Below are positions 13,458-34,671 of a DNA stretch of 64,000 bases, piece by piece. The notes under the pieces are model-generated. The model searched no databases. It worked only from the letters and a program-made list of their open reading frames with translations, and was not told where the DNA came from. The DNA is taken from assembly GCA_003134785.1 (NCBI GenBank), contig PLCN01000020.1, forward strand, positions 248,001 to 312,000, in the 5' to 3' direction. The position numbers were made by a program, and so were the translations under genes. The DNA comes from Spartobacteria bacterium. Lineage in GTDB: Bacteria; Verrucomicrobiota; Verrucomicrobiia; Chthoniobacterales; UBA10450. Within the stretch, counting starts at the first letter, position 1; each line of letters opens with the position of its first letter.

Positions 13458-13531
13458 GTGTCTGTAGCTCAACTGGATAGAGCAGCTGACTTCGGATCAG
13501 CAGGTTGGGGGTTCGAATCCCTCCAGACGCG
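13458..13531 (+). tRNA. tRNA-Arg(TCG)
   Basis: A 74-nt cloverleaf. The acceptor stem is GTGTCTG/CAGACGC, the D arm GCTC...GAGC, the anticodon arm GCTGA-CTTCGGA-TCAGC with anticodon TCG, and the T arm GGGGG-TTCGAAT-CCCTC with discriminator G and no encoded CCA. Its 3' half from 13489 is the left attachment site of the 21-kb element, so the 3' end present here was supplied by the element. Confidence 0.95.
13489..13526 (+). repeat. attL core (3' half of tRNA-Arg)
   Basis: It runs from the anticodon loop to within the acceptor stem of tRNA-Arg and is repeated at 34596-34633 with one difference. The anticodon arm gives the symmetric core typical of tyrosine-integrase crossover sites. Confidence 0.85.
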
Positions 13532-13553
13532 CCCCTCGTAAAACGGGGCGTTT
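13530..13553 (+). terminator. Rho-independent terminator of tRNA-Arg
   Basis: Hairpin CGCCCC (13530-13535), 9-nt loop, GGGGCG (13545-13550), followed by TTT. It starts at the last acceptor-stem base of the tRNA, so it belongs to the incoming element. Confidence 0.6.
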
Positions 13554-13583: not shown

Positions 13584-13618
13584 GGTGGTCACTTTTTTGG
13601 CACTTTTTTGCACTTTCG
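13584..13618 (+). repeat. Arm-type integrase-site candidates at the left end
   Basis: Three consecutive CACTTTTTTG-like units start at 13590, 13601 and 13611, the last degenerate as CACTTTCG. The sequence GGTGGTCACTTTTTTG at 13584-13599 recurs at the right end of the element (34489-34504). Matching short repeats just inside both att cores are what one expects of integrase arm sites. Confidence 0.6.
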
Positions 13619-13655
13619 TACTCGTTTCCAAAGCTTCCGAAACAAGAAGCTTAGG

Positions 13656-14729
13656 ATGAAACGAATATCGAAAAATCTATATCAGCACGAAAACGGCACT
13701 TTTTACACGCTCCGTCGCGTCGGCATCCGTCAGTTTAAGAAATCACTCGGAACAAAGGACAAGGCGCTCGCAACGCGGCTCCAACGGCAATCGCTCCTTA
13801 ATCCCACCGTCGCAGCCACTGCGGCGGACATTGCGGCATTCGATCCCACTGCACAGCCGCGTCCATTGCTTCTGGCCGCTGCTGAAGCGCACGAAGCGAA
13901 TACCGCCTTTGGCAGCGAAGACACGGCCCGCAACCTTCGTCTTCGAAAAAGGACTATGCTTCGATTATGTTCGTCATGGGAGGAGTTTCAGCCAGTAGCC
14001 ATCTGGAAAAAATTCGAGGCTGAAGGCGTGGCGTTCAAAAAAGAAAAAGGATTGGAGGGCGGTTGGGTCAGCGCTCCGAATCAATTACGTTGGTATCTGC
14101 GCTCGTTCTCGCAGTTTTGTCTCGAACGCGGCTGGGTCACGGCAACCCAGGTGAATGGGAAAATTCCAAGGAAAATCGTCCCGCCTCGCAGAGTCCAAAT
14201 TCCCTCTGCGCAAGCTGTTTCTGAACTTCTCCTCATGTGCGAAGCCGAAGATTTTGAACTCGGGTCATTCATTCGTTGGCTCACGAATTCCGGCCTCCGC
14301 CTTTCGGGTGCAGCGTCGATCCGGTGGGAGGATGTTAATTTTCCTGCAGGTGAATACCGTAGAAAAATGAAGGGCGGAAAAGTTGTCGTGATTCCTCTTC
14401 TTCCTGACGCCCTCGCTCTCCTCCATTCACGTTGGGATGGGGCAGGTCGTCCAAGCGCGGGGTTGATCTTCTCGTTAGGCGACGCACGGATAAAGCGAGT
14501 TCGGCGGATTCTAAGAAAATACTCTGCGGGCTTGGGAATTAATTTGGAACACCCGCACCTCCTCAGGCACTATTTCGCGTCGGTTGCCTTTGCGAACGGT
14601 TTCTCCGCAGGCGAAGTCGCTCAGATGCTGGGCCATCGGGACGGAGGTGCGCTTGCTCTCCAAGTCTATGGTCACGTGATTCCTAGTCAGCTCAAGACTA
14701 AGGTCGCACAGCTGCGGATGGTCGCGTGA
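13656..14729 (+). CDS. int: Tyrosine recombinase/integrase of the element
   Basis: 357 aa. The SAM-like core-binding half (about 75-180) precedes a catalytic domain with Arg215 (TNSGLRLSGA), a Lys-bearing beta hairpin (KMKGGKVVVIPL), His301-x-x-Arg304 (HLLRHYFASV), His327 (LGHRDG) and nucleophile Tyr338 (VYGHVI). All catalytic positions are present. The usual Glu two residues after the first Arg (GLRxxE) is replaced in GLRLSGA. It lies directly inside attL in the orientation typical of tRNA-targeting elements. The ATG at 13656 follows TTAGG; the TTG at 13608 would add 16 residues over the arm-site repeats. Confidence 0.92.
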   Translation: MKRISKNLYQHENGTFYTLRRVGIRQFKKSLGTKDKALATRLQRQSLLNPTVAATAADIAAFDPTAQPRPLLLAAAEAHEANTAFGSEDTARNLRLRKRTMLRLCSSWEEFQPVAIWKKFEAEGVAFKKEKGLEGGWVSAPNQLRWYLRSFSQFCLERGWVTATQVNGKIPRKIVPPRRVQIPSAQAVSELLLMCEAEDFELGSFIRWLTNSGLRLSGAASIRWEDVNFPAGEYRRKMKGGKVVVIPLLPDALALLHSRWDGAGRPSAGLIFSLGDARIKRVRRILRKYSAGLGINLEHPHLLRHYFASVAFANGFSAGEVAQMLGHRDGGALALQVYGHVIPSQLKTKVAQLRMVA

Positions 14730-16105: not shown

Positions 16106-16633
16106 ATGAAAGACGAAAACCAAACCGATTGCGAGTCGATAAGAACTCGCGATCCGGAAATATTAACGGCAGAGCGCGCAGCCGGGGAATTTTGCGCGCA
16201 ACTCAAATCGTTCGATCCCCAGATTGAATATCTTCGTGGTCTTGGCCGTGATGGCGGACTCCCCCGTCAGGTCCTGCATCTTTACCTGAAGCTGATGGCG
16301 GCGAATCGGCCGAAAATCACGGTCGATGAGGCAAGGCTTCTGGTGGATGTGCTGAACTCTCGGGACGCGCTTTTCCTTCGAGAACTGGCGGACCTGACGG
16401 ATAGCGTCGCTTTCAACGTCGAAACCTGGCTGATGGTTTATGGATTCGAGGGACTCAAAGTCGACGGGGATCGGTTCGTTGGGAGACTGCGTAGGATGTC
16501 GGTGATTGAGCTCTGCTCGTTGATCGATTCGATTGATGAGTGGTGGAAATCGTCGGAGCGTTCGACTTCGTTCGCTGGCCTCGCCCGTTACTTCAACCTC
16601 GAAACCGAAAGGGGGGTGCCATGCCGTGGGTAA
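16106..16633 (+). CDS. Hypothetical protein, first gene of the MTase/SIR2 operon
   Basis: 175 aa, acidic and predicted mainly helical, with no membrane segment. Visible landmarks are PRQVLHLYLKLMAANRPKIT and RMSVIELCSLIDSIDEWW. I do not recognise a family. It overlaps the next gene by 8 nt (16626-16633), which implies coupled translation, and it follows the only promoter-like sequence of the operon. A regulatory or accessory role for the operon is inference. Confidence 0.6.
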   Translation: MKDENQTDCESIRTRDPEILTAERAAGEFCAQLKSFDPQIEYLRGLGRDGGLPRQVLHLYLKLMAANRPKITVDEARLLVDVLNSRDALFLRELADLTDSVAFNVETWLMVYGFEGLKVDGDRFVGRLRRMSVIELCSLIDSIDEWWKSSERSTSFAGLARYFNLETERGVPCRG

Positions 16634-17501
16634 AAACTCCTCTATCGAATGGACCCATCATACGTTTAATCCGTGGTGGGGTTGTGTGAAGGTGTCGCCT
16701 GCGTGCCAGAATTGCTATGCAGAGGCGTTTGCTAAACGGCTTGGGAAAGCGGTTTGGGGATCAGCGGCTCCTCGGCGCTTCTTTGGGGAGGATCATTGGC
16801 GCGAACCACTGAAATGGAATGCGCGAGCGAAAGCTGACGGCGAGCGGAAACGCGTTTTTTGTGCGTCGATGGCCGACGTATTCGAAGCGCGAATCGATCT
16901 TGATGCCGAGCGGTCGAAGTTATGGGCGCTGATCGAAGCTACTCCGTGGCTGGATTGGCTGCTGCTTACGAAGCGCCCCGAGAACGTCGTGCCGATGGTG
17001 CCGTGGCTCGAACCCTGGCCGCGAAATGTGTGGATCGGAACCACGGTTGAGAACGATGAATGGGCTGACGAGCGTTTGCCCCATCTTGCACGGATTCCCG
17101 CCGCGAGACGATTCCTATCGTGCGAACCGTTGCTCGGGCCTTTAGACCTGCGGCGCTGGCTTCTGCCAGGAGATCCGGCGCGCTATCCGATAGATTGGGT
17201 AATCGTGGGCGGCGAAAGCGGTGGGAAGTCGCGGCCGATGCTGCCGTCGTGGGCGGAGGATCTACGTGACGCTTGCGTTACCGCGCGAGTCCCGTTCTTC
17301 TTCAAGCAATGGGGATGTTGGACTCCCGCTGTCGGCCCTCCGATGCAGATTGATGAGTCGCTCGTCGATGCTGCGACCATGCGAGCGTTCGATATGCGCC
17401 GCGTCTCAAAGATCGCCGGAGGGCGGCTGCTGGATGGCCGCACATGGGACGAAGTTCCGGACTCTGTTGCCGTGGGCGCGCCCGTCTTTTCGGTCTGCTA
17501 A
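16626..17501 (+). CDS. DUF5131 (phage Gp37/Gp68-like) three-cysteine protein
   Basis: 291 aa. The N-terminus MGKNSSIEWTHHTFNPWWGC followed by VKVSPACQNCYAE is diagnostic of DUF5131/Gp37-Gp68 proteins. Its three cysteines (Cys20, Cys27, Cys30) resemble a radical-SAM-like iron-sulfur site. Other family motifs are CASMADVFE, LLLTKRPENV, WIGTTVEN, FLSCEPLLG and WVIVGGESG...ARPM-like KSRPMLPSW. The biochemical reaction is unknown. Homologues lie in phages and defence-type islands, often next to a 'three-Cys-motif partner', which is absent here. The GTG at 16626 is chosen because family homology begins there and GAAAGGGGGG precedes it; the frame extends upstream without similarity. Confidence 0.88.
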   Translation: MGKNSSIEWTHHTFNPWWGCVKVSPACQNCYAEAFAKRLGKAVWGSAAPRRFFGEDHWREPLKWNARAKADGERKRVFCASMADVFEARIDLDAERSKLWALIEATPWLDWLLLTKRPENVVPMVPWLEPWPRNVWIGTTVENDEWADERLPHLARIPAARRFLSCEPLLGPLDLRRWLLPGDPARYPIDWVIVGGESGGKSRPMLPSWAEDLRDACVTARVPFFFKQWGCWTPAVGPPMQIDESLVDAATMRAFDMRRVSKIAGGRLLDGRTWDEVPDSVAVGAPVFSVC

Positions 17502-17514
17502 CTCGCCGATGCGA

Positions 17515-17548
17515 GCCGATTCCGTCGGTATGTTCCGACGGAGTCGGC
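17515..17548 (+). promoter_or_regulatory. Strong hairpin and CCACGTGG palindrome before the methyltransferase gene
   Basis: GCCGATTCCGTCGG (17515-17528) pairs with CCGACGGAGTCGGC (17535-17548), 14 bp with one T-G pair and a 6-nt loop. The palindrome CCACGTGG follows at 17555-17562. No T-run follows, so it looks more like an operator or attenuator than a simple terminator. It sits in the only sizeable gap (124 bp) of the operon. Confidence 0.5.
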
Positions 17549-17625
17549 CGTGGTCCACGTGGTTAATGATTTGCCTGAATTGGCTCGTTGACCTTTCAGG
17601 TCAATGGCGGCTAGCGTAGTTTCGA

Positions 17626-19101
17626 ATGTCAGCGAAACCGTCAGTGGTCATCGACACGCGGGTCATCTATTGCGGCGATAATCTCGACCAGCTGCGCAAG
17701 CTGCCAGAAGCGTGTGTGGATTTGGTCTACATAGACCCGCCGTTCAACTCGAACCGGAATTACGAAGTCTTCTGGGGCGAGACGAAGGAAAAGCGGAGCT
17801 TTGTTGACCGGCACGAATCGACGAAGGCGTATATCGATTACATGCGCCCGCGATGCGTTGAATTGCACCGCGTGCTCAAGAAAACTGGCAGCTTTTACTA
17901 CCACTGCGATTGGCACGCCAGTCACTACGTCAAAGTTATGCTCGACCAGATTTTCGGTGAGAATAACTTCATCAACGAGATCATTTGGAAACGGCAATCC
18001 GCGCATAGCGATGCGAAACAAGGCTCGAAGCACCTTGGACGTATTCACGATTCAATTTTTCTCTATGCGAAATCCGACGACTATGCGTTCACCCACCTGT
18101 ATCGGTCGTACGACGAGGGATATGTCGAAAAGTTCTACAAGCACGTCGAGCCAGAGACAGGGCGGCGATACTCTCTCGGCGATATTACAGCCCCAGGGGG
18201 CGCTGCGCCTTCCAAAGGCAATCCCCATTACGAGTTTTTGGGAGTTGAACGTTGGTGGCGGTTTAGCAGGGAACGAATGCAGGAATTGTACGAGCAGGGC
18301 CGGATAGTTCAAACGAAGCCGGGTGCCGTTCCGCGTGAGAAGCGGTATCTCGACGAAGGCAAGGGAGTGCCATTAGGGACCGTCTGGGATGACATTGGGC
18401 CTGTTCAAGGAATGGGCGAGTCGCTCGGCTATCCCACGCAAAAGCCACTTAAGTTACTTCAAAGAGTTCTCGAACTCAGCAGCTCAGCAAATGACATCGT
18501 TCTTGATGCATTTTGCGGATGTGGTACTGCGCTCGTTGCTGCGCAGTTACTAAAGCGGCAGTGGATTGGTATAGACATTTCACCGACTGCCTGCCGCGTA
18601 ATGGCTCAGCGGCTTAAGAAAGATTGCGGACTAAAGGAAGACGAGAAACTGCAACTGATCGGACGCGGCTTTGTCGTGCGCGATTTGCCGAAGACTGAAG
18701 AAGAGTTACGAAAATATCCGCCATTCGAATTCGAGAATTGGGCTGTTGTCGCACTAGGCGGGACGAAGAATGCCCGGCAAGTCGGAGACATGGGCATCGA
18801 CGGCAGAATTTATCCAGTCACCGCAATGCCGGAGCGTCGCGGAGCGCGCACCGGCGAAATGGACTTCATGGACGAATGGTATCCGATCCAGGTGAAGCAA
18901 ACGGCCAAGGTGGGCCGCCCCGACATCGATGCCTTTGAAGCTGTCATGATACGCGAAGAAAGAATGCTAGGCTATTTCGTTGGCTTTGAATTTACCGGCG
19001 ACGCTCTTTTCGAAATCGACCGGTTCCGACGGAAAGAGGGACGCGAGATCAAGCCGCTGACCGTGCGGGAAATTCTCGGTGAAGAAATCGCGCTGCAATA
19101 A
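17626..19101 (+). CDS. Beta-class DNA methyltransferase with C-terminal nuclease-like domain
   Basis: 491 aa. Motif IV DPPF (37-40) comes before the target-recognition region and motif I DAFCGCGTALVAA (FCGCG 296-300), the order of beta-class adenine-N6/cytosine-N4 methyltransferases. Motif X-like TQKPLKLLQRVLE (271-283) precedes motif I. Residues about 370-470 (FENWAVVALGGT...MGIDGRIY...YPIQVKQ) carry Asp392 and Gln422-Val-Lys424, resembling the D...(E/Q)xK core of Mrr-type restriction endonuclease folds. A fused restriction-modification role is therefore possible, though such C-termini also occur in methylases of unproven nuclease activity. The next gene starts 6 nt after its stop. Confidence 0.88.
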   Translation: MSAKPSVVIDTRVIYCGDNLDQLRKLPEACVDLVYIDPPFNSNRNYEVFWGETKEKRSFVDRHESTKAYIDYMRPRCVELHRVLKKTGSFYYHCDWHASHYVKVMLDQIFGENNFINEIIWKRQSAHSDAKQGSKHLGRIHDSIFLYAKSDDYAFTHLYRSYDEGYVEKFYKHVEPETGRRYSLGDITAPGGAAPSKGNPHYEFLGVERWWRFSRERMQELYEQGRIVQTKPGAVPREKRYLDEGKGVPLGTVWDDIGPVQGMGESLGYPTQKPLKLLQRVLELSSSANDIVLDAFCGCGTALVAAQLLKRQWIGIDISPTACRVMAQRLKKDCGLKEDEKLQLIGRGFVVRDLPKTEEELRKYPPFEFENWAVVALGGTKNARQVGDMGIDGRIYPVTAMPERRGARTGEMDFMDEWYPIQVKQTAKVGRPDIDAFEAVMIREERMLGYFVGFEFTGDALFEIDRFRRKEGREIKPLTVREILGEEIALQ

Positions 19102-19107
19102 CATGCT

Positions 19108-20136
19108 ATGTCTCTTCAAGCGTTCACTGACCGTGCGGCATTGGAGCAGATTCGCCGCGACCTGTGGATCGAACGCGAACACGGTCGAGCATCCGTTATG
19201 GTGGGAGCTGGCTTTAGCCGCAACGCCCATCGAATATCTCCAGACGCTCCAGGATTCCCGACTTGGGCGGAGCTTGGCGGTAAGCTGAGGCGAGAACTCG
19301 ACCCGCTCGCTAACGCTAGCAGCTCAGAGTGTGTTTCGGCCAGCGACTTAATGCGCTCGGCTTTCGAATATGAAGTGCAATTCGGTTCGATGCGGCTTTC
19401 GGAATTTTTGCTCAGGGAAATACCAGACGAGCAGTATGAGCCGGATTCCCTGCATCGCCTTTTGTTGTCGCTTCCGTGGTCGGACATCTTCTCGACTAAC
19501 TACGACACATTGCTTGAACGCACGCGCAGACTAGTTCCAGAACGGCACTATGAGGTCGTGCTTGTACCTGCTGATATTGCCGGAAGATTACAACCTAGGA
19601 TCGTGAAATTACACGGCACTTTCCCCTCACATCGGCCATTTATCTTCACGCAAGAGGATTTCCGAACTTATCCGCGCCAATTCGCGCCCTTTGTCAATTT
19701 GGTTCAGCAGGCGCTCATGGAGACAACACTATGCCTCATAGGCTTCTCCGGCGACGATCCGAACTTTCTCGCGTGGAGCGGATGGGTCCGAGATGAACTC
19801 GGTAATCACTGCCCGCCAATATATCTGTGCGGTTTGTTGAATCTAAGCGCCGCCGCCCGCATTGTGTTGGATCGGCACAATATTCGTGCTGTCGATTTAG
19901 CGCCCTTATTCACTGACCCGGCACTGGATTCGAGTCGGACACACGCTTTGGCAGTTGAGTGGTTCTTGCGAAGTCTCCTCGCAGCGGAGCCTCCTAATCG
20001 TGTCCGCTGGCCCCGTGGTGGACAACGCTCGGTCGAACCCGGAACCACAGGTCTGCCTCCATTGCTTCCCGCAAACATTGCCGCATACGAAGTAGGACCA
20101 CTGCACCCCAATCATGGCTCAGACTTTGAAGCTTGA
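19108..20136 (+). CDS. SIR2-family NAD-degrading effector-like protein
   Basis: 342 aa. The SIR2 Rossmann fold has VGAGFSRNA (32-40) for NAD binding, IFSTNYDTLLE with Asn131, IVKLHGTF with His169, and IGFSGDDPNF (211-220). Asn131 and His169 occupy the positions required for NADase activity in anti-phage SIR2 proteins such as DSR2 and ThsA, so the site looks intact. Such effectors deplete NAD+ upon phage sensing and stop cell growth. This protein has only the SIR2 part plus about 60 residues. The 961 aa partner gene overlaps it by 23 nt, suggesting that effector and sensor are separate chains. Confidence 0.88.
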   Translation: MSLQAFTDRAALEQIRRDLWIEREHGRASVMVGAGFSRNAHRISPDAPGFPTWAELGGKLRRELDPLANASSSECVSASDLMRSAFEYEVQFGSMRLSEFLLREIPDEQYEPDSLHRLLLSLPWSDIFSTNYDTLLERTRRLVPERHYEVVLVPADIAGRLQPRIVKLHGTFPSHRPFIFTQEDFRTYPRQFAPFVNLVQQALMETTLCLIGFSGDDPNFLAWSGWVRDELGNHCPPIYLCGLLNLSAAARIVLDRHNIRAVDLAPLFTDPALDSSRTHALAVEWFLRSLLAAEPPNRVRWPRGGQRSVEPGTTGLPPLLPANIAAYEVGPLHPNHGSDFEA

Positions 20137-22999
20137 GGTCCTTCGGGAACTAGTCATCACGTGGCGCAAGTGCCGGGAGCATTATCCGGGATGGGTTATT
20201 GCACCTGCTGACGCGCGGGAGACCTTGTGGCAATACACCGAACAGTGGTTGGAAATTCTCCCCAGCAACTTGCCTAGAATGAAGCCTGACGAGGCGCTAT
20301 TCCTGACCGCTGAAGCTTTTTGGCGAATCGACACAGCCTTAAGCCCGATGCTGCTTAGCCAAGCAGAGATGGCGACTGAAGTATTGAGTCGAATCAATCC
20401 TGCGCCCGACGTTCTGCCATGGCCCGTTGACGCCGAAGTGTTGGATACAGCTAAGGGCGTTCGCTCTGAGTTAACCGCTGCTTGGGTCTCGACTTCATTC
20501 GCCGTTATGCGTGAGGCCCGTGAGGATTTTGATACGGGTCGATATGAAATGTGGCGAGACCGCTTGCAGCGAATCGCTCGGGAACGTCCGGACTGGTTAG
20601 CACGATGGCATTATGAGCAGTCACTTACTACCCTGTGGAGACTTGATTTTGATGGTCTCGACCGGGCATTGAACGACTGGCCGGTCCAAACGGCGCAGCT
20701 TCCATTTTGGGAGATCAAGCGAGCGGCACTATGGGCAGAATTAGGTGACATCCAGCGCGCGCAAAGCACCGCTGAATCGGCTTTGGACACTATCCGTGCT
20801 AGAACACGAGTCGGGGCAGTTGATTACCAGAATCTTTCCGAAGAGGGATGGGCAATGCGCCTTGTGATGGCATTGCGTCATAGTCGCGCCCGATTCATGC
20901 CGGAGAGCGAACGCGCGCGCTTTCAAGAGAGATTCTCTGAGTTGGCACGATACAAATGCAATCCATGGGAAGTTACAGAGTGGTTAGAACTCGCATTGAG
21001 CGCGCCGCGTCCAACTCTTCGGCCGGTCGAAACGGAGAGTATAACCTTCGACCCCGGCACGTACTCGACGCGTTTTTCGCATAAGCGCCAAACTCTCATA
21101 GAAACCGCCCGTCCCGCCTTTGCATTTCTCCGGGTCGTGGAAGAAGCGGCGGTTCCGCTACGGGTCGGCTCACTCATGATGCTCAGCTCCGAACTCAAGC
21201 AGATCCCGCTCTGGATCGCACCATTCGCTTTTTCGTGGGCTGTCGCAACAGCCATTCGGTCTGATGAGGAAGAGGTCGTGGAAGAATTACTAAACCGCAC
21301 TAACATTGGGATTCTAAAGCAGTCACATGCCCTCACCCTCGCAGATTGGCTTTCTGAAGTTTGTGAGCGCTCGCTCAACAGACTCACTCAAGAGACTGAT
21401 CACGGATGGGAAAGACCGTTGCCGCAGCGGATTGTGGGAGCGGTGGCCGAGGCTTTGTCGCGCCTAATCTTACGCGTCGATGCAAGCAAAGTTGAGCGAA
21501 TCGTGGCTTTGGCGGAAGACATGTGCCGAATTAAGGCTGCTTCACCCCTGTTTGGTGAAATGAAGCACATCGATGCGATATTTCGTCGAGCTATCGAATC
21601 GTGTCTTTCGCCAGAACAAATTGAGCGGCGCATCGTCGACTGGCTTGAGTTGCCACTTCCGTCAGAAATTGGTGGACCGCCAGTAATACACCAAGAGAGG
21701 GCCGAGCCGTTTCATTACATCACAATCAATAAGACTCTACGCTGGAAACGGCCGCTCGGAGCGAGTGTTAATGATCGAATCCAAAAGCTGCTGCACGCCG
21801 TCGCCTTCGGTACAGCCTGGGACCGCAGGCGTGCATCTATTCGACTGGTTGTTGTAGCTCAGCTCGGTGGATTGATGAAAAGGGAAATCCTTAAACTCAA
21901 AGAAGCTCTATGGGAGCGATTAGACCCTGGGACCAAACTACCCATTGAAACCGGAGTGAGGTTGACTTTTTTGATGAAGTATTGTCCATTTCCAAAAAAG
22001 GAGCGGCGCGGGATACTGCAGCGCGCGTTTTTAGAAACGCCAATTCCAAGAATCCGCATTCCTAGTGCCGATGGAAGTGGCTTTGCACTCGATTCCGTGG
22101 GCGCGGAACGGCACGTGACGAACCTTTCCGACATTACTGGCGGATTGTGGACCCCCGCCGACGCTCGCCATTATACTGTTAGCTGGACTCCTAAAGAGTC
22201 TTCAACGCTACTATCCCATATACGGGAATGGTGGGAAAACGAGCGGTCTACTTTTTCTGCTTCAGCCGCACAAAAATCCTTCGTTCTCGATCCAATCAAA
22301 AGCTGTACCGAGATTTTAGTAGACCTACTCGGCTCAGCATTAATTCCGCAGCTACCGCACTCAAACGCGGAAGCTGTTCTTTCCCTTGTCGAATCCATTG
22401 GCTCGCATAATGTGCCGACACTTCCCGCAAAACCCGCAGCGGTTAGGCTGGGATTGAGACGCGATCAGTTAGTGCAAGAGACATTAGCTTGCTTGTTGAG
22501 CACTAACTCTCCGAACGTGCGATCAGCCTGTCGCGCTATTCAAAATTGGTTAATGCTCGCAAAGTCTGTTTCCTGGACCCCTAATCCGGCCCGTATCGTA
22601 GAGGCAGTCGTTTGGAAGATCGTTTTGCGTAGGAAGCCGGGGCTCGACACCTTAATGAACCTCACTGCATCTCTCCTCGACCGGCGAGCAATTCTCATCT
22701 CCTTTACACAAGTCAATGATCTCGCCCTCGGTTTGGAGTTTCTAGTCGAGGAAACCGAGCTTCCGCAGGAACTCTCGCAATCGTTGCTCACACGGCCAGA
22801 GGATGATTCGTTAGGTTATCCGGACCGGCCGCATCACCGACTTGCCGCCGCGAGATTGGCGCGAGCATTGGGACGGCACCTCAAACGCTCTAAGCGGGCG
22901 GTTCCGAAGATAATTGAAAATTGGCGCGATCTGTCGGACGCCAGCACGTTGCCGGAACTCAGAAAGGTGTGGCGCGCTGGTCGAGAGAGCGATTACTGA
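20114..22999 (+). CDS. Large helical partner protein of the SIR2 effector
   Basis: 961 aa, soluble, with no signal peptide or membrane segment. The N-terminal third looks TPR/HEAT-like (RWHYEQSLTTLWRLDFDGLD, FWEIKRAALWAELGDIQRAQ). The remainder is helical with several Trp/Arg-rich segments and a basic C-terminus (HHRLAAARLARALGRHLKR). I see no nuclease, ATPase or helicase motif. It overlaps the SIR2 gene by 23 nt and is followed 6 nt later by a terminator, so it is the last gene of the operon. By analogy with DSR-type proteins, whose long helical C-terminus senses phage proteins and holds SIR2 inactive, it may be the separate sensor/regulator (inference). A DUF4020-like relationship is possible but cannot be tested here. 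Confidence 0.75.
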   Translation: MAQTLKLEVLRELVITWRKCREHYPGWVIAPADARETLWQYTEQWLEILPSNLPRMKPDEALFLTAEAFWRIDTALSPMLLSQAEMATEVLSRINPAPDVLPWPVDAEVLDTAKGVRSELTAAWVSTSFAVMREAREDFDTGRYEMWRDRLQRIARERPDWLARWHYEQSLTTLWRLDFDGLDRALNDWPVQTAQLPFWEIKRAALWAELGDIQRAQSTAESALDTIRARTRVGAVDYQNLSEEGWAMRLVMALRHSRARFMPESERARFQERFSELARYKCNPWEVTEWLELALSAPRPTLRPVETESITFDPGTYSTRFSHKRQTLIETARPAFAFLRVVEEAAVPLRVGSLMMLSSELKQIPLWIAPFAFSWAVATAIRSDEEEVVEELLNRTNIGILKQSHALTLADWLSEVCERSLNRLTQETDHGWERPLPQRIVGAVAEALSRLILRVDASKVERIVALAEDMCRIKAASPLFGEMKHIDAIFRRAIESCLSPEQIERRIVDWLELPLPSEIGGPPVIHQERAEPFHYITINKTLRWKRPLGASVNDRIQKLLHAVAFGTAWDRRRASIRLVVVAQLGGLMKREILKLKEALWERLDPGTKLPIETGVRLTFLMKYCPFPKKERRGILQRAFLETPIPRIRIPSADGSGFALDSVGAERHVTNLSDITGGLWTPADARHYTVSWTPKESSTLLSHIREWWENERSTFSASAAQKSFVLDPIKSCTEILVDLLGSALIPQLPHSNAEAVLSLVESIGSHNVPTLPAKPAAVRLGLRRDQLVQETLACLLSTNSPNVRSACRAIQNWLMLAKSVSWTPNPARIVEAVVWKIVLRRKPGLDTLMNLTASLLDRRAILISFTQVNDLALGLEFLVEETELPQELSQSLLTRPEDDSLGYPDRPHHRLAAARLARALGRHLKRSKRAVPKIIENWRDLSDASTLPELRKVWRAGRESDY

Positions 23000-23005
23000 G
23001 ATTCG

Positions 23006-23040
23006 GCAGATCCATCTCCTGGATCTGCTTTGCGTTTTCT
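23006..23040 (+). terminator. Terminator of the MTase/SIR2 operon
   Basis: Perfect 9-bp stem GCAGATCCA (23006-23014)/TGGATCTGC (23020-23028) with a 5-nt loop, followed by TTTGCGTTTTCT. It begins 6 nt after the stop codon of the 961 aa gene. Confidence 0.75.
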
Positions 23041-23339
23041 CACTGTGCTTTAGCATAGTGAGCTAGACATTACTGGCACCTGTCCAGTAATGTCATCTCG
23101 CAGACACATATTCGCTACTCAGTTCAGATTACCCATCGTAACGATTGTAGTACGCATTAGTGCGTTTCCGTCGTCTGCTTTATGCCGATTGTAGTACGGG
23201 GTTCGGTAGTCTACTTGGGTGGCTTTGTAGTACGCTCTCGTGTGGCCTCTGACCGCTCAAACCGCGCTCTAGCTACGGCTCTTACTTAACTGCAATAGAC
23301 GGAGCAAATCGGGACCTTTTCTTGCTCCATAGCAAACGC
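23041..23339. other. Hairpin and direct-repeat region, candidate oriT
   Basis: No gene is visible in about 300 bp. It holds an 8-bp hairpin with one mismatch (23041-23060, CACTGTGC/GCATAGTG), a perfect 11-bp inverted repeat GACATTACTGG/CCAGTAATGTC (23066-23094, 7-nt loop), and three direct copies of TTGTAGTACG at 23145, 23189 and 23225 (spacing 44 and 36). The relaxase-like gene starts directly after it. Transfer origins usually show such an inverted repeat plus short direct repeats next to the relaxase gene. Confidence 0.45.
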
Positions 23340-24548
23340 ATGGCGTTAGCACAAATGGGAATAGGTCAATCAGCGGTTCGACACTGCGACCCGCGAAGCC
23401 TTACACATCGCCGCCATTCCCGTGAAGCCAGTAGCCGACGTGTCGTGGACCGGGTGATAGTTGATGTCACTCGAAACGACGCGGTGAGATTGAATTCGCT
23501 TGGCGATGTGTGGGAAAAGAAGTGGGACGGATGGGAAGGGTCCATCTTCTTAGTTGAGCAGAACACATACTTGCTTCCCGGTGCGAAGCGGGTTCGGACG
23601 AAATTAATCGAATGCGATGGATCGACGTTCACGTCAGTTGCTTCTCGCATCAATAGGCTGGATTGGTATTGGAGCGTCCGTTCCGACAAGGGCGTTGAGC
23701 GGAAAGCGAAACGGAAGGTTGAGAAAAATCGCGTTGGCAGGTTATGCGACCGCCACACGGTGACGCTTTCTCCACCCGCCATGCGACTGTGCCAAAAACT
23801 CAATTTGAGCGAACGCGATGCAAAACGGTTGCTCAGCACACTCCAGACAAAGAGCCTCCAATTCTTTGCTGAAGAGACCGGAAGACACTTAATCGGGAGC
23901 GCGGCACATGCGGATTCTGGAATTTTACACTTCGACATCGTCTCAAGCAGAATAGATCCCGATCACAAGCTCTGCGGAGAGAAAAGCATCCCTGCTGTCT
24001 CGAATGAAGGGTGGACAATCGGCGCATGGCGACAGAAGCAACTCGGCTGTCGCCTAACAGAAACGAAGTCGAAATGGTTGGACCATAATTTTCAACGATT
24101 TGCTGAGCGGCACGGAGAAAAACAACCTTTGCTCCTGAAGCTCCACGCGAAATTGGACGACGATTTTGAACACTGGGTGGAGAGTCACGGTCATTCGAAG
24201 CTCTGGGAGCAATCGAAGCAAGAATACCGCGACTGGGTCGCTGAAACCGATCAGACAAAAGAACGCTGGGCCGAAGAGCGAGCGAGCGGAAAGAACGCGA
24301 CCAAACTGGCTGAGCGCGCGGCCATGTACGCGCTCAGAATGGTTCTGCCGCCGACGGTATACAATGCCGTGCGAACATCGATGACGGCCGCTCAGGTGGT
24401 CAAGGATTTGTTAGCCGGCGACGCTAATCCGAACATCACCGGACTCCTGCTTCAGCTTACAATCCGAGCCGGATTGAAACGCTTGAATTCAAAAAAGAGT
24501 CGTTATCGGAACGGATATGATTTCACGCCAACAACACCAAAATTATGA
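23340..24548 (+). CDS. Putative relaxase-like mobilization protein
   Basis: 402 aa, basic. Residues 189-203 contain H-A-D-S-G-I-L-H-F-D (His190, Asp192, His197, Asp199). This resembles the third motif of MOB relaxases (HxDxxxxHxHxxxx), although the last metal-ligand His is Asp. The C-terminal half is charged and helical, ending in a basic stretch (RLNSKKSRYRNGYDF). A catalytic Tyr motif is not evident near the N-terminus. It overlaps the next gene by 4 nt (ATGA) and lies behind a hairpin/repeat region, a layout typical of mobilization loci. The ATG at 23340 is chosen over the TTG at 23322. The family assignment is tentative; a replication or phage-derived DNA-processing protein is the alternative. 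Confidence 0.5.
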   Translation: MALAQMGIGQSAVRHCDPRSLTHRRHSREASSRRVVDRVIVDVTRNDAVRLNSLGDVWEKKWDGWEGSIFLVEQNTYLLPGAKRVRTKLIECDGSTFTSVASRINRLDWYWSVRSDKGVERKAKRKVEKNRVGRLCDRHTVTLSPPAMRLCQKLNLSERDAKRLLSTLQTKSLQFFAEETGRHLIGSAAHADSGILHFDIVSSRIDPDHKLCGEKSIPAVSNEGWTIGAWRQKQLGCRLTETKSKWLDHNFQRFAERHGEKQPLLLKLHAKLDDDFEHWVESHGHSKLWEQSKQEYRDWVAETDQTKERWAEERASGKNATKLAERAAMYALRMVLPPTVYNAVRTSMTAAQVVKDLLAGDANPNITGLLLQLTIRAGLKRLNSKKSRYRNGYDFTPTTPKL

Positions 24549-25057
24549 ACACAATTCTTGCCACAGATGCTGACTATTTGAAATTGAACCAAGGGTGCGA
24601 TGCGGAGCCGATGTCGGCGGAATACCGGGAGTTTCACAGTCGTATCGGCATGATGTGGTTTGAGGGAAAAGAGACTGTAGGTAAGAGAGGCATCGTCCCA
24701 GGGGAGCCGTTCCCAAATACGCTCCCTCACCTTTCGCTGGAATTCGTTCTCATATCCGGCGCGATGAACCTACGTTTTGATTGCGGGCTCATGGTTGGGC
24801 CTGCATCGGAAGCGCATGCGGGATTTTTCAACACTCTCTATGGAACGAGCAGCTCGGGAACGGCCGGCGCGCAGCAAAACGGGCGATGGAAGGAAATGAA
24901 GCTGGATTCACCGAAAACCCCGACTAAGCCATTATCCCCTGACGCGAGCGGAGTCCTGAAACCACAGACCGATGCAGCTTCAATCGCAACACCCGCCAAA
25001 CGTAAACCGAAACGCCCAGCGGACGCATTTGATCCGTTTAGCGGTCTCCTGTATTGA
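24545..25057 (+). CDS. Hypothetical protein coupled to the relaxase-like gene
   Basis: 170 aa. The first 110 residues look globular (EYREFHSRIGMMWFEGKE, LSLEFVLISGAMNLRFDCGL). The rest is a Pro/Lys/Ala-rich tail (TPAKRKPKRPADAFDPF). Its ATG overlaps the stop of the relaxase-like gene (ATGA), so the two are probably translated together. No family recognised; an accessory mobilization protein is a guess from position. Confidence 0.6.
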   Translation: MNTILATDADYLKLNQGCDAEPMSAEYREFHSRIGMMWFEGKETVGKRGIVPGEPFPNTLPHLSLEFVLISGAMNLRFDCGLMVGPASEAHAGFFNTLYGTSSSGTAGAQQNGRWKEMKLDSPKTPTKPLSPDASGVLKPQTDAASIATPAKRKPKRPADAFDPFSGLLY

Positions 25058-25062
25058 TTTAA

Positions 25063-25098
25063 ACCGCGAGTCTGTTTGCCTTGAAACAGTCTCGCGGT
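25063..25098 (+). terminator. Hairpin terminator after the mobilization genes
   Basis: A 15-bp stem with one mismatch, 25063-25077 against 25084-25098 (ACCGCGAGTCTGTTT with AAACAGTCTCGCGGT), and a 6-nt loop. It starts 6 nt after the preceding stop codon. No T-tract follows, so its strength is uncertain. Confidence 0.55.
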
Positions 25099-27454: not shown

Positions 27455-30400
27455 TTAGTTGAGCGCGTAGATCTCTACAACCGCGATACCGGTTGATCCG
27501 CCCGCTCCGCGCACAATCGCGGTGTAGTTGCCCGGAGTAAGCGTACGCACGATAGCTGACTCCAGATTGTTCGGCGGCGGGATCGTGCTGTCGATAATCT
27601 CTTGCTTGTTCGGGCTGTCTACCCAATTATCGTTCGCTTCTAGCAAGGCTCCGTTACTGTCGTGTAATTCCAGAGTCGGGTCGGACATTTTCCCCGGAAC
27701 AGACAAGGAAGGGGCTAGTGCGCGGATAATCACCTTGGCTACGCCTCCTCCGGTTCCTCCGCCGACAATCAACCCACCGATCATGACGTTATCGTTGGTG
27801 TCCACAAATCCACGGCTGCTGATATTGGCGAGCTTCGAGTTCGCGCCCTGCGCCAGATCGTAGACCTCGACAACCCCCACCCCCGTTCCCCCATTCTTAC
27901 CCGCAAGGATGGCGGTATAGTTGCCCGGAGGCAGAGTTGCCACGATGGCCGATTCCAAATCGTTTGTAGGTGCAATTGTCGTGGCGCGAATGTCAGCTTC
28001 CTGAGATTGGCCAGTCCCGTCGTTGATCTTCCAGTTGTCGTTGGTAATAACCGTGCCGTCCGGCTGATGGAGTTCCAACGTCGGATCAGACAAAGTAACG
28101 CCCACACCGCTGAGTGAAGGTCCCATTCCGCGAATGATGACCTTCTTTGGATCGGTTCCTGTGATGATAAAACCACCGATCAGTACCCGATCACCGGCAA
28201 GCACGTCCATCCGGGTCGAAATGTTGAGAAGCCGTGCAGTCAGAGGCGGTGGAAGCGTGGTGTTGACGGTTTTTAGATCGGTCTGGCCTTCCTGCGGAAC
28301 CTGAATGACCTGCGAAGTGCCGCCGACCGTAACAGTCTGCGGGACATACGATATTTGCGTTGCGAGATATGCCGCGTGCAGCGCCCCATCGCCGCTGAAA
28401 TAACCAGAAACATTACTGATTACACTGGTGTCTTCAATCAGCTGTTGATCGGCACTCCAGCTATGCGCGGCGCTGTAATAGACGGTCGCGAAAAGGTTAG
28501 CAATCCCGTCAGAATTCGGCTTTCCAAATTCTAGAACAAGGTTGCCGCTCTTGTCGGCCAGCAGCCGTGCATCATAAAAACCAAGACTACTGCTTCCCGT
28601 GCGGATAAGCTTTGGTGATGGGTCGTCAAGCGTCGCACCGACAAGATCGTTGCCGTGTTGCCACACAACGTGCGCAACGCCACCGCTGTCATAACTGGCG
28701 GTAGGCAGCCGACTGTCAGTTCCATCAGCCGCGAAGCTCTGCGCTCCGCTCCACAGCCCGTGCAATCGGCGGTATACGTCCAGAACACTGGTGCTGGAAG
28801 TGTTCAGATCAGGAACACGTCCGATCACTATAAAAGCATCTTCGCCGCGCACCGCAGCCACGTGATGGGATACCCCGACTAAGGAGGTATCAAGAACAGC
28901 AGGTGGTGTCCAAATTCCGCCAGCACGGGTGCTGTATTTGAGCGTCGATGGACTACCCGATGTGGACAAGAGTTCCGCGTCCGGATTCGAGAGCCAGCTC
29001 AGGAGGACGTTTCCAGCTCCGTCCGACGCTAGCTGAAGGTCTGTGTCAAGAGCAGTGTCATCCGTCAGCGCCGTAACTGGCGTCCATCTTAGAGTTGTCG
29101 GATCGAAGTCGGCTGTGACCACCTCAAAGTCTTTGTAAAACTGCGCCACGTCAGCAAGCGTCGAAACTGAAGTAGGGAAATTTGGATCTTTCACTCGGAG
29201 CCAAGCTGCAACGACCTTCCCAGTACTATCGAGAGCGGCGACGGGAGAGAATTCCGCTTGTGTGTCGTTGACGATGAGTTGGGGCGGACTCCAGTTTCCG
29301 TTCCCATCTTGTATCGACCACATGATTCCAGTAGAGCGGGTCTCAGGCAGGTTTGGGTCGGCGGAGGCCCACATCACTAGTTGGCGACCATCGCTTAGCG
29401 CAATTGTAACTGGGGATGCTCCGGGGAAGAGGTTGGTCACTAACGTCACGCCAGATACCGCAGTCGAGTCGGCATACTTTGCCGAGGCCGCGCTCGTTTG
29501 CTCTTGCTTGATAGCCGGTGAACGAGAAACTTCCCCATCCGCAAAATGCGCGTACTGCCCGAATTGGGCGTAGTCGCGCTTTATCACCGCTACCGTGGCA
29601 GAGGCTCCTCCCTCCGTCACTTGTTCGCATTGCACAGGACTACCAGCGGTATAATTGCATCCATACTCATCGGTTTCTCCTCCGCCTGTGAAGCTTCCGA
29701 AGATGTAATCCATCTTGAGCTTGAAGCCAAGCTTCTCCGTGAACTGCGCGTTGCGCAGGAACGGATCAGACGGAAGGCCGACGGTTGCCTCCCCCTTCGC
29801 GACGCCATAAACGCTTGCCGTTAGACGCTCCGGAATGATTGTGAATTCCAAAGCGGTCGTCAGTTCAATGGTTAGCGATCCAGTGGTGTCGGCAAACTGG
29901 ATGCTACCGTCGCTCCCTTGGTTGAACGTTTCATTGAAAGTCATCGTTGGCGTAACCTCGCAGTTGAGACTGGCCGCATTCCTGAACCAAGACAGAGCTC
30001 CACCAAAGAGCTGCGATTGGATCTTCCCTAAACTCGGAAACGCCGTCAAGATTGGTGTCTTTGACGTAATCTTGCCTTGCAATCCGATACTTGCTGCGCC
30101 CTTCTGCACGACCACGCCGCTGTTACATTGGAGCGTAAGGTCCGCTTTACCACTAACGATTCCAGCTATGCTCCCCGATTGATCCTCGGGGTTGCCAAAA
30201 AGGAAACCTGTTTGACCGGACCCCTCCAACGAGCCGGTGCCGTTCGTAGATACCTTTCCGCTAGCTTTGAAGTAAGTCTCTGCGAGGCCAAATTGGCCAC
30301 CGATAAACGGCACAAATGAGGGGATCGTGATCTGGCCGGTTGCTTTGCCCCAGTGCGGCGACTCGTACGATAAAGAGAACGAGATATCTCCAGTTGCTGA

Positions 30401-31801
30401 AGTAACCAATGTAATTGGCGCAGCCACCCAGGCCGGGATCGGCTCTACGCAAATGTTTTCGAAATCCGAAGTGCTTTGCTGTTTCTGGCCATTGATCGCT
30501 ATGACTTCGAGCGTCGTCGGAAGAAGGCTCGGGGTGAAGTCGCTGCCCATGTTGAATGTGTGTTCCCCTCCCGTAGCCGTCCCGGTCGCACTCGCAATCG
30601 CCGCACCATTGTAGAGGAAATCCACTTCGCCGGGATCACCTTTCCAGTTTACCGCTACTGTGAAGAGGTTTGTAACGTTTGCACCGGCCAAAAACACCCC
30701 GCGATACTGGCGCGTGAGTGAAGTGATAATGGGGCCAGCAGTCGGTGTAGGTGTAGGTGTAGGTGTAGGTGTAGGGATGGTTTTTTGTGGCGTCGCGTAG
30801 ACCGAAACCCCTCTGGCTTGAAGAGCTGCGATTCGCCCCTGCGAAACTGCGTCTCCAACGTCCAAGTAATTATATGTAACATCCACAATATTGGGGGTGC
30901 CGGACATTGCCAGCTGCGGGAAGTCGCCGCTCAGTTGATTGTTGCTGACGTCAAGTTGTGTCAAGTTGCTGAGGTTGCCCAAAGAGGCGGGGATCGGTCC
31001 GCTCAGCTGATTGGTATTAAGGTAGAAGCCTTGTAGGTTAGACAAATTGCCCAAGGAAGCCGGAATCGGTCCGCTCAGCTGATTGGTATTAAGGTAGAAG
31101 CCTTGTAGGTTAGACAAATTGCCCAAGGAAGCCGGAATGGATTCGCTCAGCTGATTCGTACTAAGGTCGAGCAACAGCAGGTTAGACAAATTGCCCAAGG
31201 AAGCCGGAATCGATCCGCTCAGTTGATTGTCATTGAGGCCGAGGATTTGCAGGTTAGACAAATTGCCCAAGGAAGCCGGAATCGGTCCGCTCAGCTGATT
31301 GGCTCCAAGCGTGAGTTGTTGTAGGTTAGACAAATTGCCCAAGGAAGCCGGAATCGGTCCGCTCAACTGATTGCCGTCAAGGAGGAGGATTTGCAGATTA
31401 GACAAATTGGCCAAGGAAGCCGGAATCGGTCCGCTCAGCCGATTGCCGTCAAGGTAGAGGAATTGCAGGTTAGACAAATTGCCCAAGGAAGCCGGAATCG
31501 GTCCGCTCAACTGATTGCCGTCAAGGAGGAGGGTCCTCACATTTCCCGGCACACTGACGTTTCCATTTTGGTCATATCCGACGCCCTTGACATCAACGCC
31601 GGACCAGTCGGCAGCACTGCCATCGAGCCAGCCATCCCTTTGGGGCCACTGCGACCCGTTCGCCGAGTTGTATAGATCAACGAGCGCCTGATATTCGGCC
31701 GGCGGAATCTGATACTGCATGCCATTGTTCGCAGCATCCGCCTCAGCAAGAAACGCAGCGGTCAGTAACAGGCTGGCGGTGATACTTAATGAATGTTTCA
31801 T
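27455..31801 (-). CDS. Giant leucine-rich-repeat surface protein of the element
   Basis: 1448 aa with a signal peptide (MKHSLSITASLLLTAAFLAEADA). An LRR-cap-like start (YQALVDLYNSANGSQWPQRDGW) precedes about nine 24-residue LRRs of the plant-like type (LxGNQLSGPIPASLGNLSNL). A PTPTPT linker follows, then a long beta-rich middle region with Cys-containing segments (about 370-800) and a beta-propeller-like part with repeated 'SDGRQLVMWAS' and 'DGAGNVLLSWLS' units. Two copies of the VLIGG/VMIGG domain close the protein ([20 protein letters not shown] and NDNVMIGGLIVGG), ending VVEIYALN. It is probably exported and surface-exposed, for binding or host/prey contact. It is unusual as cargo of an integrative element and shares its C-terminal domain with the chromosomal gene at 1-4741. 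Confidence 0.92.
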   Translation of the reverse strand: MKHSLSITASLLLTAAFLAEADAANNGMQYQIPPAEYQALVDLYNSANGSQWPQRDGWLDGSAADWSGVDVKGVGYDQNGNVSVPGNVRTLLLDGNQLSGPIPASLGNLSNLQFLYLDGNRLSGPIPASLANLSNLQILLLDGNQLSGPIPASLGNLSNLQQLTLGANQLSGPIPASLGNLSNLQILGLNDNQLSGSIPASLGNLSNLLLLDLSTNQLSESIPASLGNLSNLQGFYLNTNQLSGPIPASLGNLSNLQGFYLNTNQLSGPIPASLGNLSNLTQLDVSNNQLSGDFPQLAMSGTPNIVDVTYNYLDVGDAVSQGRIAALQARGVSVYATPQKTIPTPTPTPTPTPTAGPIITSLTRQYRGVFLAGANVTNLFTVAVNWKGDPGEVDFLYNGAAIASATGTATGGEHTFNMGSDFTPSLLPTTLEVIAINGQKQQSTSDFENICVEPIPAWVAAPITLVTSATGDISFSLSYESPHWGKATGQITIPSFVPFIGGQFGLAETYFKASGKVSTNGTGSLEGSGQTGFLFGNPEDQSGSIAGIVSGKADLTLQCNSGVVVQKGAASIGLQGKITSKTPILTAFPSLGKIQSQLFGGALSWFRNAASLNCEVTPTMTFNETFNQGSDGSIQFADTTGSLTIELTTALEFTIIPERLTASVYGVAKGEATVGLPSDPFLRNAQFTEKLGFKLKMDYIFGSFTGGGETDEYGCNYTAGSPVQCEQVTEGGASATVAVIKRDYAQFGQYAHFADGEVSRSPAIKQEQTSAASAKYADSTAVSGVTLVTNLFPGASPVTIALSDGRQLVMWASADPNLPETRSTGIMWSIQDGNGNWSPPQLIVNDTQAEFSPVAALDSTGKVVAAWLRVKDPNFPTSVSTLADVAQFYKDFEVVTADFDPTTLRWTPVTALTDDTALDTDLQLASDGAGNVLLSWLSNPDAELLSTSGSPSTLKYSTRAGGIWTPPAVLDTSLVGVSHHVAAVRGEDAFIVIGRVPDLNTSSTSVLDVYRRLHGLWSGAQSFAADGTDSRLPTASYDSGGVAHVVWQHGNDLVGATLDDPSPKLIRTGSSSLGFYDARLLADKSGNLVLEFGKPNSDGIANLFATVYYSAAHSWSADQQLIEDTSVISNVSGYFSGDGALHAAYLATQISYVPQTVTVGGTSQVIQVPQEGQTDLKTVNTTLPPPLTARLLNISTRMDVLAGDRVLIGGFIITGTDPKKVIIRGMGPSLSGVGVTLSDPTLELHQPDGTVITNDNWKINDGTGQSQEADIRATTIAPTNDLESAIVATLPPGNYTAILAGKNGGTGVGVVEVYDLAQGANSKLANISSRGFVDTNDNVMIGGLIVGGGTGGGVAKVIIRALAPSLSVPGKMSDPTLELHDSNGALLEANDNWVDSPNKQEIIDSTIPPPNNLESAIVRTLTPGNYTAIVRGAGGSTGIAVVEIYALN
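30905..31545 (-). repeat. 72-bp tandem repeats encoding the LRR array
   Basis: About nine units of 72 bp encode the 24-residue LRRs. Several are nearly identical at the DNA level; the units around 31005-31075 and 31077-31147 match almost base for base. That indicates recent duplication or gene conversion. Confidence 0.85.
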
Positions 31802-32337: not shown

Positions 32338-33363
32338 TTACAGGCCTGCGCGCTCAGCGTTGACAATTCGCTGCAAGTCGCGCCGCCAGACATATTCGCT
32401 TATGGTACAATAGATTACCCCGTATTTCCCCATCGGATCACAAACCGCGAACTGTTCCTTGCCCTCGGTCGGTCGCTGCAAGACAAACAGATTCGGGTCT
32501 TCTTGTAGTCGCAGAACGGTCCAGAGCCTCCCTTGCCAAAACACTGTCCTTGGCATCGCGTCGAAGTCGCGCTCCGGTATCGCTAGACGTTCCGCACAGT
32601 CGAGAATCTCTCGGTAGTGTGTCCAAATCCATTTGCGTGATGAATCTGACGCTTTGTAGCCATGGTGCCTCGCCACTTCTGCCACGGCTCTCCTCCACCT
32701 GGCCGCAAATGGGCTCGTCCAAGAAAATCGCGCCATACAAATGCGTTTGAAATTCGCGCTGTAGGATACGCGCCTGAGTTTCTTGTCTGATTTCAATCGG
32801 CTTTGGTCGATGTGCCGAGCCAGATAGATCGACCATCCCTCGATGTCTCCGACACGCGCGACCGTCGTTCTTCCAAATCCATGACTCGCGGCTGAAGCCT
32901 TCAAGTTCTTGCGCAAGCTCGCAAGGCGGTCCTTTCCGGATTTTCGTTTACCGCAATATTCAGTCATCGCGAGCGTGATGTGATAATGGATCTGGCCCTT
33001 TCGTGTCCGACCCGTCACTCGCACGTAAACGAGACAGTTCGTCCGTATTACATTGGTCAGGAAGCCATTCAGCAGTCGCTGGGCTTCTTTGTTCGGGACA
33101 TCCCTTCGTAGCGTCAGACAGATTTCCAACAGGCGATTAGCTTTCCAATACGGCTCCAGGCTGAGGATATTCTGTTGTACGGCATACGCTTTTTTGGAAA
33201 GGCGAAGAGGGTTGTCATATTCGATTTTTCGATGTTGGGAGTATTGAATTGGTTGGTTTCGGGATTGAGTTATGTCCTCCTTTACAGGACAAGGACACGC
33301 GGTCGGATCAGGTTGGAATTCGATAAGCCGGCCTTGTTGCCGTAGTGGGGAGAAATTGTTCAT
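32338..33363 (-). CDS. HUH-type Rep-like protein (rolling-circle replication or transfer)
   Basis: 341 aa, basic. VRVTGRTRKGQIHYHITLAM holds His126-Tyr-His128, matching the metal-binding HUH motif of rolling-circle replication initiators. WSIYLARHIDQ (Tyr180) resembles the 'Y-x-x-K-Y' catalytic motif, with Arg-His in place of Lys-Tyr, and is followed by KSDKKLRRVSYS, as in phage/plasmid Reps. The C-terminal third (about 240-341) is helical and not recognised. It implies replication of the excised circle or a phage/plasmid ancestry for this end of the element. The N-terminal coding region includes one copy of the 42-bp repeat. Confidence 0.6.
   Translation of the reverse strand: MNNFSPLRQQGRLIEFQPDPTACPCPVKEDITQSRNQPIQYSQHRKIEYDNPLRLSKKAYAVQQNILSLEPYWKANRLLEICLTLRRDVPNKEAQRLLNGFLTNVIRTNCLVYVRVTGRTRKGQIHYHITLAMTEYCGKRKSGKDRLASLRKNLKASAASHGFGRTTVARVGDIEGWSIYLARHIDQSRLKSDKKLRRVSYSANFKRICMARFSWTSPFAARWRRAVAEVARHHGYKASDSSRKWIWTHYREILDCAERLAIPERDFDAMPRTVFWQGRLWTVLRLQEDPNLFVLQRPTEGKEQFAVCDPMGKYGVIYCTISEYVWRRDLQRIVNAERAGL
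33264..33302. repeat. 42-bp repeat with internal hairpin, copy B
   Basis: It matches 27343-27384 in the same orientation (one substitution, 4-nt deletion) and carries the same TGTCCT/AGGACA hairpin. It lies inside the 5' coding part of the HUH Rep-like gene. The two copies bracket about 5.9 kb containing the LRR gene, the small exported protein and most of the rep gene. Confidence 0.75.
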
Positions 33364-34432: not shown

Positions 34433-34671
34433 CCATATCTTCTGTTTCTTTTTCAGAGGCCGAAAGGAACTATTTTCAATTATTTTTCGGTGGTCACTTT
34501 TTTGTCACTCCGTCTAGGTCCGAACGGCGATCTTTAGACTTGATTTGGGGCGTTTGCCTCTGGTAAAGTGCGTTGAAGCTAGGAAACGAGACGAAACTTC
34601 GGATCAGCAGATTGGGGGTTCGAATCCCTCCAGGCACGCTCTCCCGCAAAAGGGACGCCGTCTAACTAACT
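34433..34671. other. Right end of the element and junction with the chromosome
   Basis: No gene. GGTGGTCACTTTTTTGTCACT at 34489-34509 matches the left-end arm-site repeat. The attR core runs from 34596 to 34633, and the displaced tRNA 3' end CAGGCACG at 34631-34638 follows. The promoter of the excisionase-like operon must also lie here. Confidence 0.6.
34596..34633 (+). repeat. attR core (displaced 3' end of tRNA-Arg)
   Basis: It is 37/38 identical to 13489-13526. It continues as CAGGCAC plus G, which pairs better with the acceptor 5' strand GTGTCTG (six Watson-Crick pairs and one G-U) than with random sequence. It is therefore very probably the original tRNA 3' end pushed away by integration. 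Confidence 0.85.

Follow-up and report, generated by a model that had tools for sequence, protein, structure and literature searches.

The locus and the element that carries it

The window analysed here, a stretch of 64,000 nucleotides, contains a putatively mobile island of an uncultured soil bacterium, in which two overlapping genes (genes A and B) are preceded by a pair of hairpins and a set of short repeats. The features of the island are the following:

13458-13533, plus strand: tRNA-Arg (TCG), the integration target (ARAGORN)
13489-13533, plus strand: attL, the 3′ 45 bp of tRNA-Arg (direct repeat search)
13584-13599, plus strand: 16-bp repeat GGTGGTCACTTTTTTG, possible integrase arm site (exact shared 16-mer)
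13608-14729, plus strand: tyrosine recombinase (integrase; Phage_integrase PF00589, E 5.9e-17)
16533-22999, plus strand: defence-type cargo, with a DUF5131 gene, an N6/N4 DNA methyltransferase, a SIR2 gene and a 961-aa gene (Pfam, PADLOC)
23006-23028, plus strand: hairpin then T-rich stretch, terminator-like, 3′ of the cargo operon
23039-23062, plus strand: hairpin 1 of the putative oriT, 10-bp stem and 4-nt loop
23066-23094, plus strand: hairpin 2 of the putative oriT, perfect 11-bp inverted repeat and 7-nt loop
23095-23103, plus strand: ATCTCGCAG, candidate nick region (invariant flank on the 3′ side of hairpin 2)
23145-23154, plus strand: iteron 1, TTGTAGTACG
23189-23198, plus strand: iteron 2, TTGTAGTACG
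23225-23234, plus strand: iteron 3, TTGTAGTACG
23340-24548, plus strand: gene A, putative divergent HUH relaxase (family alignment, profile comparison)
24545-25057, plus strand: gene B, 170-aa accessory protein (putative role)
25063-25098, plus strand: hairpin closing the module
32338-33363, minus strand: putative HUH replication protein with an HYH motif, 341 aa (REP_ORF2-G2P PF23343, E 0.0017, below cut-off)
34596-34640, plus strand: attR, a copy of the tRNA-Arg 3′ end, 41/45 identical to attL (direct repeat search)

The integrase gene lies immediately 3′ of the tRNA-Arg gene and the att direct repeats are 21.1 kb apart. The tRNA gene, the integrase and the att repeats therefore place the module inside an integrated element of ~21.1 kb. 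A second copy of GGTGGTCACTTTTTTG is present at 34489-34504, with one copy near either att site, as would be expected of integrase arm sites. When an empty integration site was sought in genus members, the two flanks were matched separately, never joined or collinear. In one of these members (G006), 3′-end fragments of tRNA-Arg(TCG) are repeated at positions 114065, 183119 and 197122 of a single contig (C27), which suggests that this tRNA gene is used repeatedly for integration.

Within the cargo, the SIR2 gene and the 961-aa gene overlap and jointly match the single-chain defence protein DSR2 (19108-22999), the SIR2 part of 342 aa corresponding to positions 11-293 of the DSR2 model and the 961-aa remainder to positions 310-1220. 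The terminator-like hairpin that follows is not conserved in the same-genus relative described below. At the other end of the element, the 341-aa HYH protein adjoins attR, its match to a rolling-circle replication family being weak. Among the element ORFs scanned, no coupling protein, secretion gene or recognised relaxase was found. Near genes A-B, the window also encodes a large secreted-type protein with leucine-rich repeats (27455-31801, minus strand), and the other of the two close relatives likewise has a large secreted-type protein near genes A-B (L007, 7563-10577, minus strand), in a different arrangement; these may be host or element DNA.

The original prediction had described a perfect 11-bp inverted repeat and three copies of TTGTAGTACG upstream of a protein with the pattern H-x-D-x4-H-x-D, coupled to a second gene and ended by a strong hairpin, and all of these were recovered in our analysis. 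Hairpins 1 and 2 are neighbours, three bases apart, and the pair folded as single-stranded DNA reaches -17.5 kcal/mol (z -5.7 against dinucleotide shuffles). Exactly three copies of TTGTAGTACG occur in the 64 kb, with no others even when one mismatch is allowed. At one mismatch 1.1 copies are expected across the window and 7% of shuffles attain three, so that it is the clustering within 90 bp, and not the number of copies, that is unusual. The protein pattern corresponds to HADSGILHFD (motif III), encoded at 23907-23936. Gene B begins within the stop codon of gene A (ATGA overlap), an arrangement present in 5/5 homologous A-B pairs examined. The final hairpin is strong (z -6.4) and is uncertain as a terminator because it has no T-run on the plus strand.

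The sole close relative found is a Spartobacteria MAG of the same genus (palsa_1414, PLCM01000020; L054). Its gene A protein is 64% identical to that of the window, and its gene B homologue 36% identical, with a conserved C-terminal FDPxxG. Between the two gene A sequences, four-fold degenerate sites are 36% identical (pS 0.85) and dN is 0.31. With synonymous sites saturated at such a dN, gene A is therefore under purifying selection. The relative also helps to set the start codon: its protein begins at the position of ATG 23340 (MALAQMGIG in the window, MALSASGIG in the relative), which makes this start the most likely one, rather than TTG 23322.

Upstream of the gene, the hairpin 2 block and its 3′ flank (23063-23103) are identical at 37/41 positions, including both hairpin arms, which is more than chance would give when compared with the 36% identity of four-fold sites. 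Repeats upstream of homologues had been named as a point to check, and the relative has the same hairpin together with five iterons, copies of TTGTAGTAC at spacings of 34, 44, 33 and 44. A search of 147 related genomes gave spaced TTGTAGTAC pairs in the window genome and the relative only, each time upstream of gene A. In the relative, the oriT-like block and genes A-B occur together without the DSR2 genes, and the neighbours on the upstream side of the block are unlike those of the window. On this pattern of conservation, the block 23063-23103 is best described as a functional DNA element travelling with genes A-B.

Two places within this block or at its edge are candidate nick sites. The first comes from similarity to pMV158. 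The query, the pMV158 nick region, is a real plasmid sequence, as its presence at 99% identity or more in 33 plasmid records confirms. In a scan of ~128,000 positions on both strands, its best window match covers the right arm of hairpin 1 and the spacer (23051, 17/23; runner-up 15/23). The alignment places the cut where the right arm of hairpin 1 ends on its 3′ side (G23062/C23063), which agrees with the position reported for IR3 of pMV158 (PMC5863519). We treat this match as a lead, since it was spotted before testing and the relative has another dinucleotide there. The second candidate, suggested by conservation, lies within 23095-23103.

Gene A defines a family found in Verrucomicrobiae

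No Pfam, NCBIfam, PHROG or PADLOC match names gene A, and its comparison with PDB sequences gave no convincing match, in line with the earlier view that it is not an obvious member of a known MOB class. Three Pfam candidates (DUF7456, PA2201_N and UBA_HOIP) were below cut-off and not common to the family. Iterated genome searches gathered a family of 17 members, all from Verrucomicrobiae. A sample of 387 genomes of the phylum yielded one extra member only, broken by a stop codon and from the same class, and no member was found among IMG/VR viral contigs or PLSDB plasmids. At locus L073 (3716-6078) of genome G333, a family member is split into two frames by a stop codon and is probably a pseudogene.

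The family alignment shows a small set of nearly invariant residues (numbering omits the initiator Met). H14 and H22 are present in 16/16 members containing the N-terminus, and H189 and H196 in 17/17; position 191 is D in 14/17 and E in the other three. The third motif-III position is H in 6 members and D, N or G in 11, including the window protein (D). Motifs such as HTDTDDLHVD, HYDSSRPHFN and HPEEGMLHVH look like variant forms of the relaxase motif III.

We then compared the family profile with seven MobV sequences. In this search against MOB families, which had been proposed for the protein, motif III of the family aligned with that of MobV relaxases over the beta-helix-beta-beta segment that bears the motif (score 44.7, P 1.2e-5, 81% probability). 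None of 100 column shuffles scored above 24.1, and an unrelated integrase profile gave 23.9. For comparison, MobV and MobP score 49.5 with each other on this scale, and the gene A family scores 38.4 with MobP. The MobV match was no weaker once the window pair had been taken out of the family (45.5). With H189, D191 and H196 masked, the family-MobV score drops to 25.9 (E 0.008), whereas under the same masking the MobV-MobP match survives at 38.8 (E 8e-5). The similarity between the family and MobV is thus localised and carried mostly by the catalytic residues. No alignment to MobV was obtained for the N-terminal 128 residues of gene A. Altogether, common descent of the gene A family and MobV is likely on these profiles, although not proven. 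TrwC and MobA/MobL were also considered as closest relatives, and profile similarity to them was absent. An AlphaFold prediction of the window protein with one homologue (two sequences) had a pLDDT of 35.

Members of the family are frequently found in a mobile context. A tyrosine integrase lies within ~10 kb at 13/17 family loci, against a genome-wide density of ~1 per 390 kb. Counting Pfam-detectable integrases only, 6/12 genomes have one within ~10 kb where ~0.6 would be expected (computed from 129 integrases in ~50 Mb). At the other 4/17 loci, among them that of the relative with the conserved oriT-like block, no integrase was found nearby. In the one-contig genome G229, 26-bp tRNA-Gln repeats bound a 7.0-kb element that holds a family member and an integrase. 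A compact 7.0-kb tRNA-Gln element is seen at L029 (8711-15719), where the family member is accompanied by an overlapping 172-aa gene, a 655-aa gene and the integrase. Over 2.5 kb, the DNA of two members that belong to different genera is 94% identical, and each has a hairpin with 30-bp arms upstream of the gene. Strong hairpins are also enriched within 350 bp upstream of the other members (combined P 4e-4, some of them possibly terminators and two of the loci not independent).

The window genome contains two more tRNA-associated islands with an integrase, a TrwC relaxase and a coupling protein (L118 and L119), so possible helpers exist in the same genome. The first (G000 C4:379000-398500) carries, beside its integrase, TrwC relaxase and coupling protein, KAP-NTPase and QueC-like genes that look like Qat-type defence cargo. 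The second (G000 C11:253500-273000) encodes a TraL/ParA-like protein with its TrwC relaxase and coupling protein, and its cargo includes a gene of 1387 aa whose product has a sacsin-type ATPase domain.

A proposed mobilization module and the rival readings

Judged on sequence evidence, we propose that genes A-B and the region 23039-23234 constitute the mobilization module of an integrative mobilizable element ~21 kb long, with a probability of about 0.72, and that gene A is probably a divergent, histidine-catalysed HUH relaxase. The idea of a divergent relaxase contained in the original prediction is thereby well supported, not proven, by the profile match, the conserved repeats, the tRNA-integrated element and the integrases at 13/17 loci. 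Several observations speak against it: the MobV match weakens strongly on masking and does not extend to the N-terminal region, the window protein has Asp for the third motif-III His, coupling and secretion genes were not recognised among the element ORFs scanned, the search for an empty site found none, and integrases were not found near 4/17 family loci.

We infer the following course of events. The integrase would excise the element from tRNA-Arg, as suggested by the integrase gene, the att repeats and the paired arm repeats. Gene A, as a divergent HUH-type single-strand endonuclease, would bind the oriT made of the two hairpins and the iterons, nick one strand beside a hairpin and become covalently joined to the 5′ end, probably via H14 or H22 acting as nucleophile as in MobV, with a metal presumably held by H189, D191 and H196. 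Gene B might aid relaxosome assembly or contact the helper, which is a guess. A coupling protein and a type IV secretion system, both provided in trans, would then move the strand, and the split DSR2, the methyltransferase and the DUF5131 cargo would be carried along with the element.

The most serious rival is that gene A initiates rolling-circle replication, the hairpin and iterons being a double-strand origin that maintains the excised circle and does not serve transfer. Integrative elements often need replication of the rolling-circle type, which speaks for such a role. It is also a serious rival because oriT and rolling-circle origins share their layout: oriT nick and binding sites are analogous to those of rolling-circle origins, where a nick hairpin is likewise combined with binding repeats (PMC5714925). 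What makes us consider this reading unlikely is first the order of the residues in the family. No conserved Tyr follows motif III in the family alignment; the nearest, Y109 (14/16), precedes it and is a Phe in at least one member. In HUH enzymes, the relaxase order has the conserved His first and the metal motif later. The gene A family has its N-terminal His ahead of the HUH-like motif, which is the order of relaxases and the opposite of that of HUH Rep proteins. Furthermore, the profile matches motif III of MobV and MobP, and the element has another Rep candidate, the HYH protein at 32338-33363.

Gene A might also be a metal-dependent nuclease, HUH-like or of another kind, whose role is unrelated to transfer (for example a regulator, defence nuclease or transposase-like), the iterons being operators of the A-B pair. 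Repeats 5′ of genes are commonly operators, the HUH fold of gene A is a prediction, the profile signal hangs on few residues and the module adjoins defence genes. We nonetheless hold this to be quite improbable, as the block and genes A-B are kept together in the relative in which the DSR2 genes are absent, the family associates with integrases and not with defence genes, and gene A is unmatched by the defence models of PADLOC. Moreover, the most conserved block is a hairpin located ~250 bp 5′ of the gene A start codon, which is not promoter-proximal. Finally, that gene A is a decayed mobilization gene on a non-transferable element, the third motif-III His having been lost, would account for HxD in place of HxH in the window protein but is barely credible, given the purifying selection between close copies (dN 0.31 with saturated synonymous sites), the D, N or G common to 11/17 members at this position, and the known MOBP-HEN relaxases, which are active with an altered motif III (PMC12857230).

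Going beyond the window, the mobilization reading can be extended to a broader and tentative proposal, to which we give slightly less than even odds: the gene A family would be a separate class of relaxases that nick with an N-terminal histidine and have an HxD...HxD/N/H metal site, apparently limited to Verrucomicrobiae among the sampled genomes, and would drive many unrecognised small tRNA-integrated mobilizable elements in the phylum. Mobility typing depends on profile models of known MOB classes, and the libraries searched miss the gene A family. If this is a relaxase family, defence islands of Verrucomicrobia that are scored immobile would be mobilizable. Histidine-catalysed nicking would then also have a second lineage, open to direct test on a short and precisely mapped putative oriT.

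Comparison with known systems

The closest resemblance of gene A is to MOBV (Mob_Pre PF01076; MobM of pMV158). In both, a conserved N-terminal His replaces the catalytic Tyr, motif III (HxD/E...H) stands in a beta-helix-beta-beta context, and a hairpin-built oriT, putative here, lies directly upstream of the gene. There are also differences. PF01076 is absent from the matches of the 17 members and has none in the window genome, and gene A is without the N-terminal HNxR and NxD...RxHLN motifs. Its motif III, HADSGILHFD, lacks the E and the last H of the MOBV form HxDExTPHxH. It has 175 residues between motifs, against about 104 in MobM. The gene A module further differs by its iterons and its coupled gene B.

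As for MOBP (PF03432), the family motif HTDTDDLHVD resembles motif III of the HHDTDALHLH type, whereas PF03432 is matched neither by gene A nor in the window genome, and no conserved N-terminal Tyr is seen. The HEN subfamily (ColE1 MbeA) resembles gene A in its altered motif III; its active members are a precedent for a changed site (PMC12857230). The islands L118 and L119 are similar to the window element in combining a tRNA-like site, an integrase, a relaxase (putative in the window) and defence-type cargo; they differ in that each encodes its own coupling protein and a relaxase-helicase of the canonical MOBF type, to which profiles reveal no similarity of gene A. In the mainly open-access literature on Verrucomicrobia relaxases that we covered, no such family is described.

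Since the features that define MOBV and MOBP were not found in gene A, we place it outside both classes, and from its motifs and genetic setting it appears to work in the way that these relaxases do.
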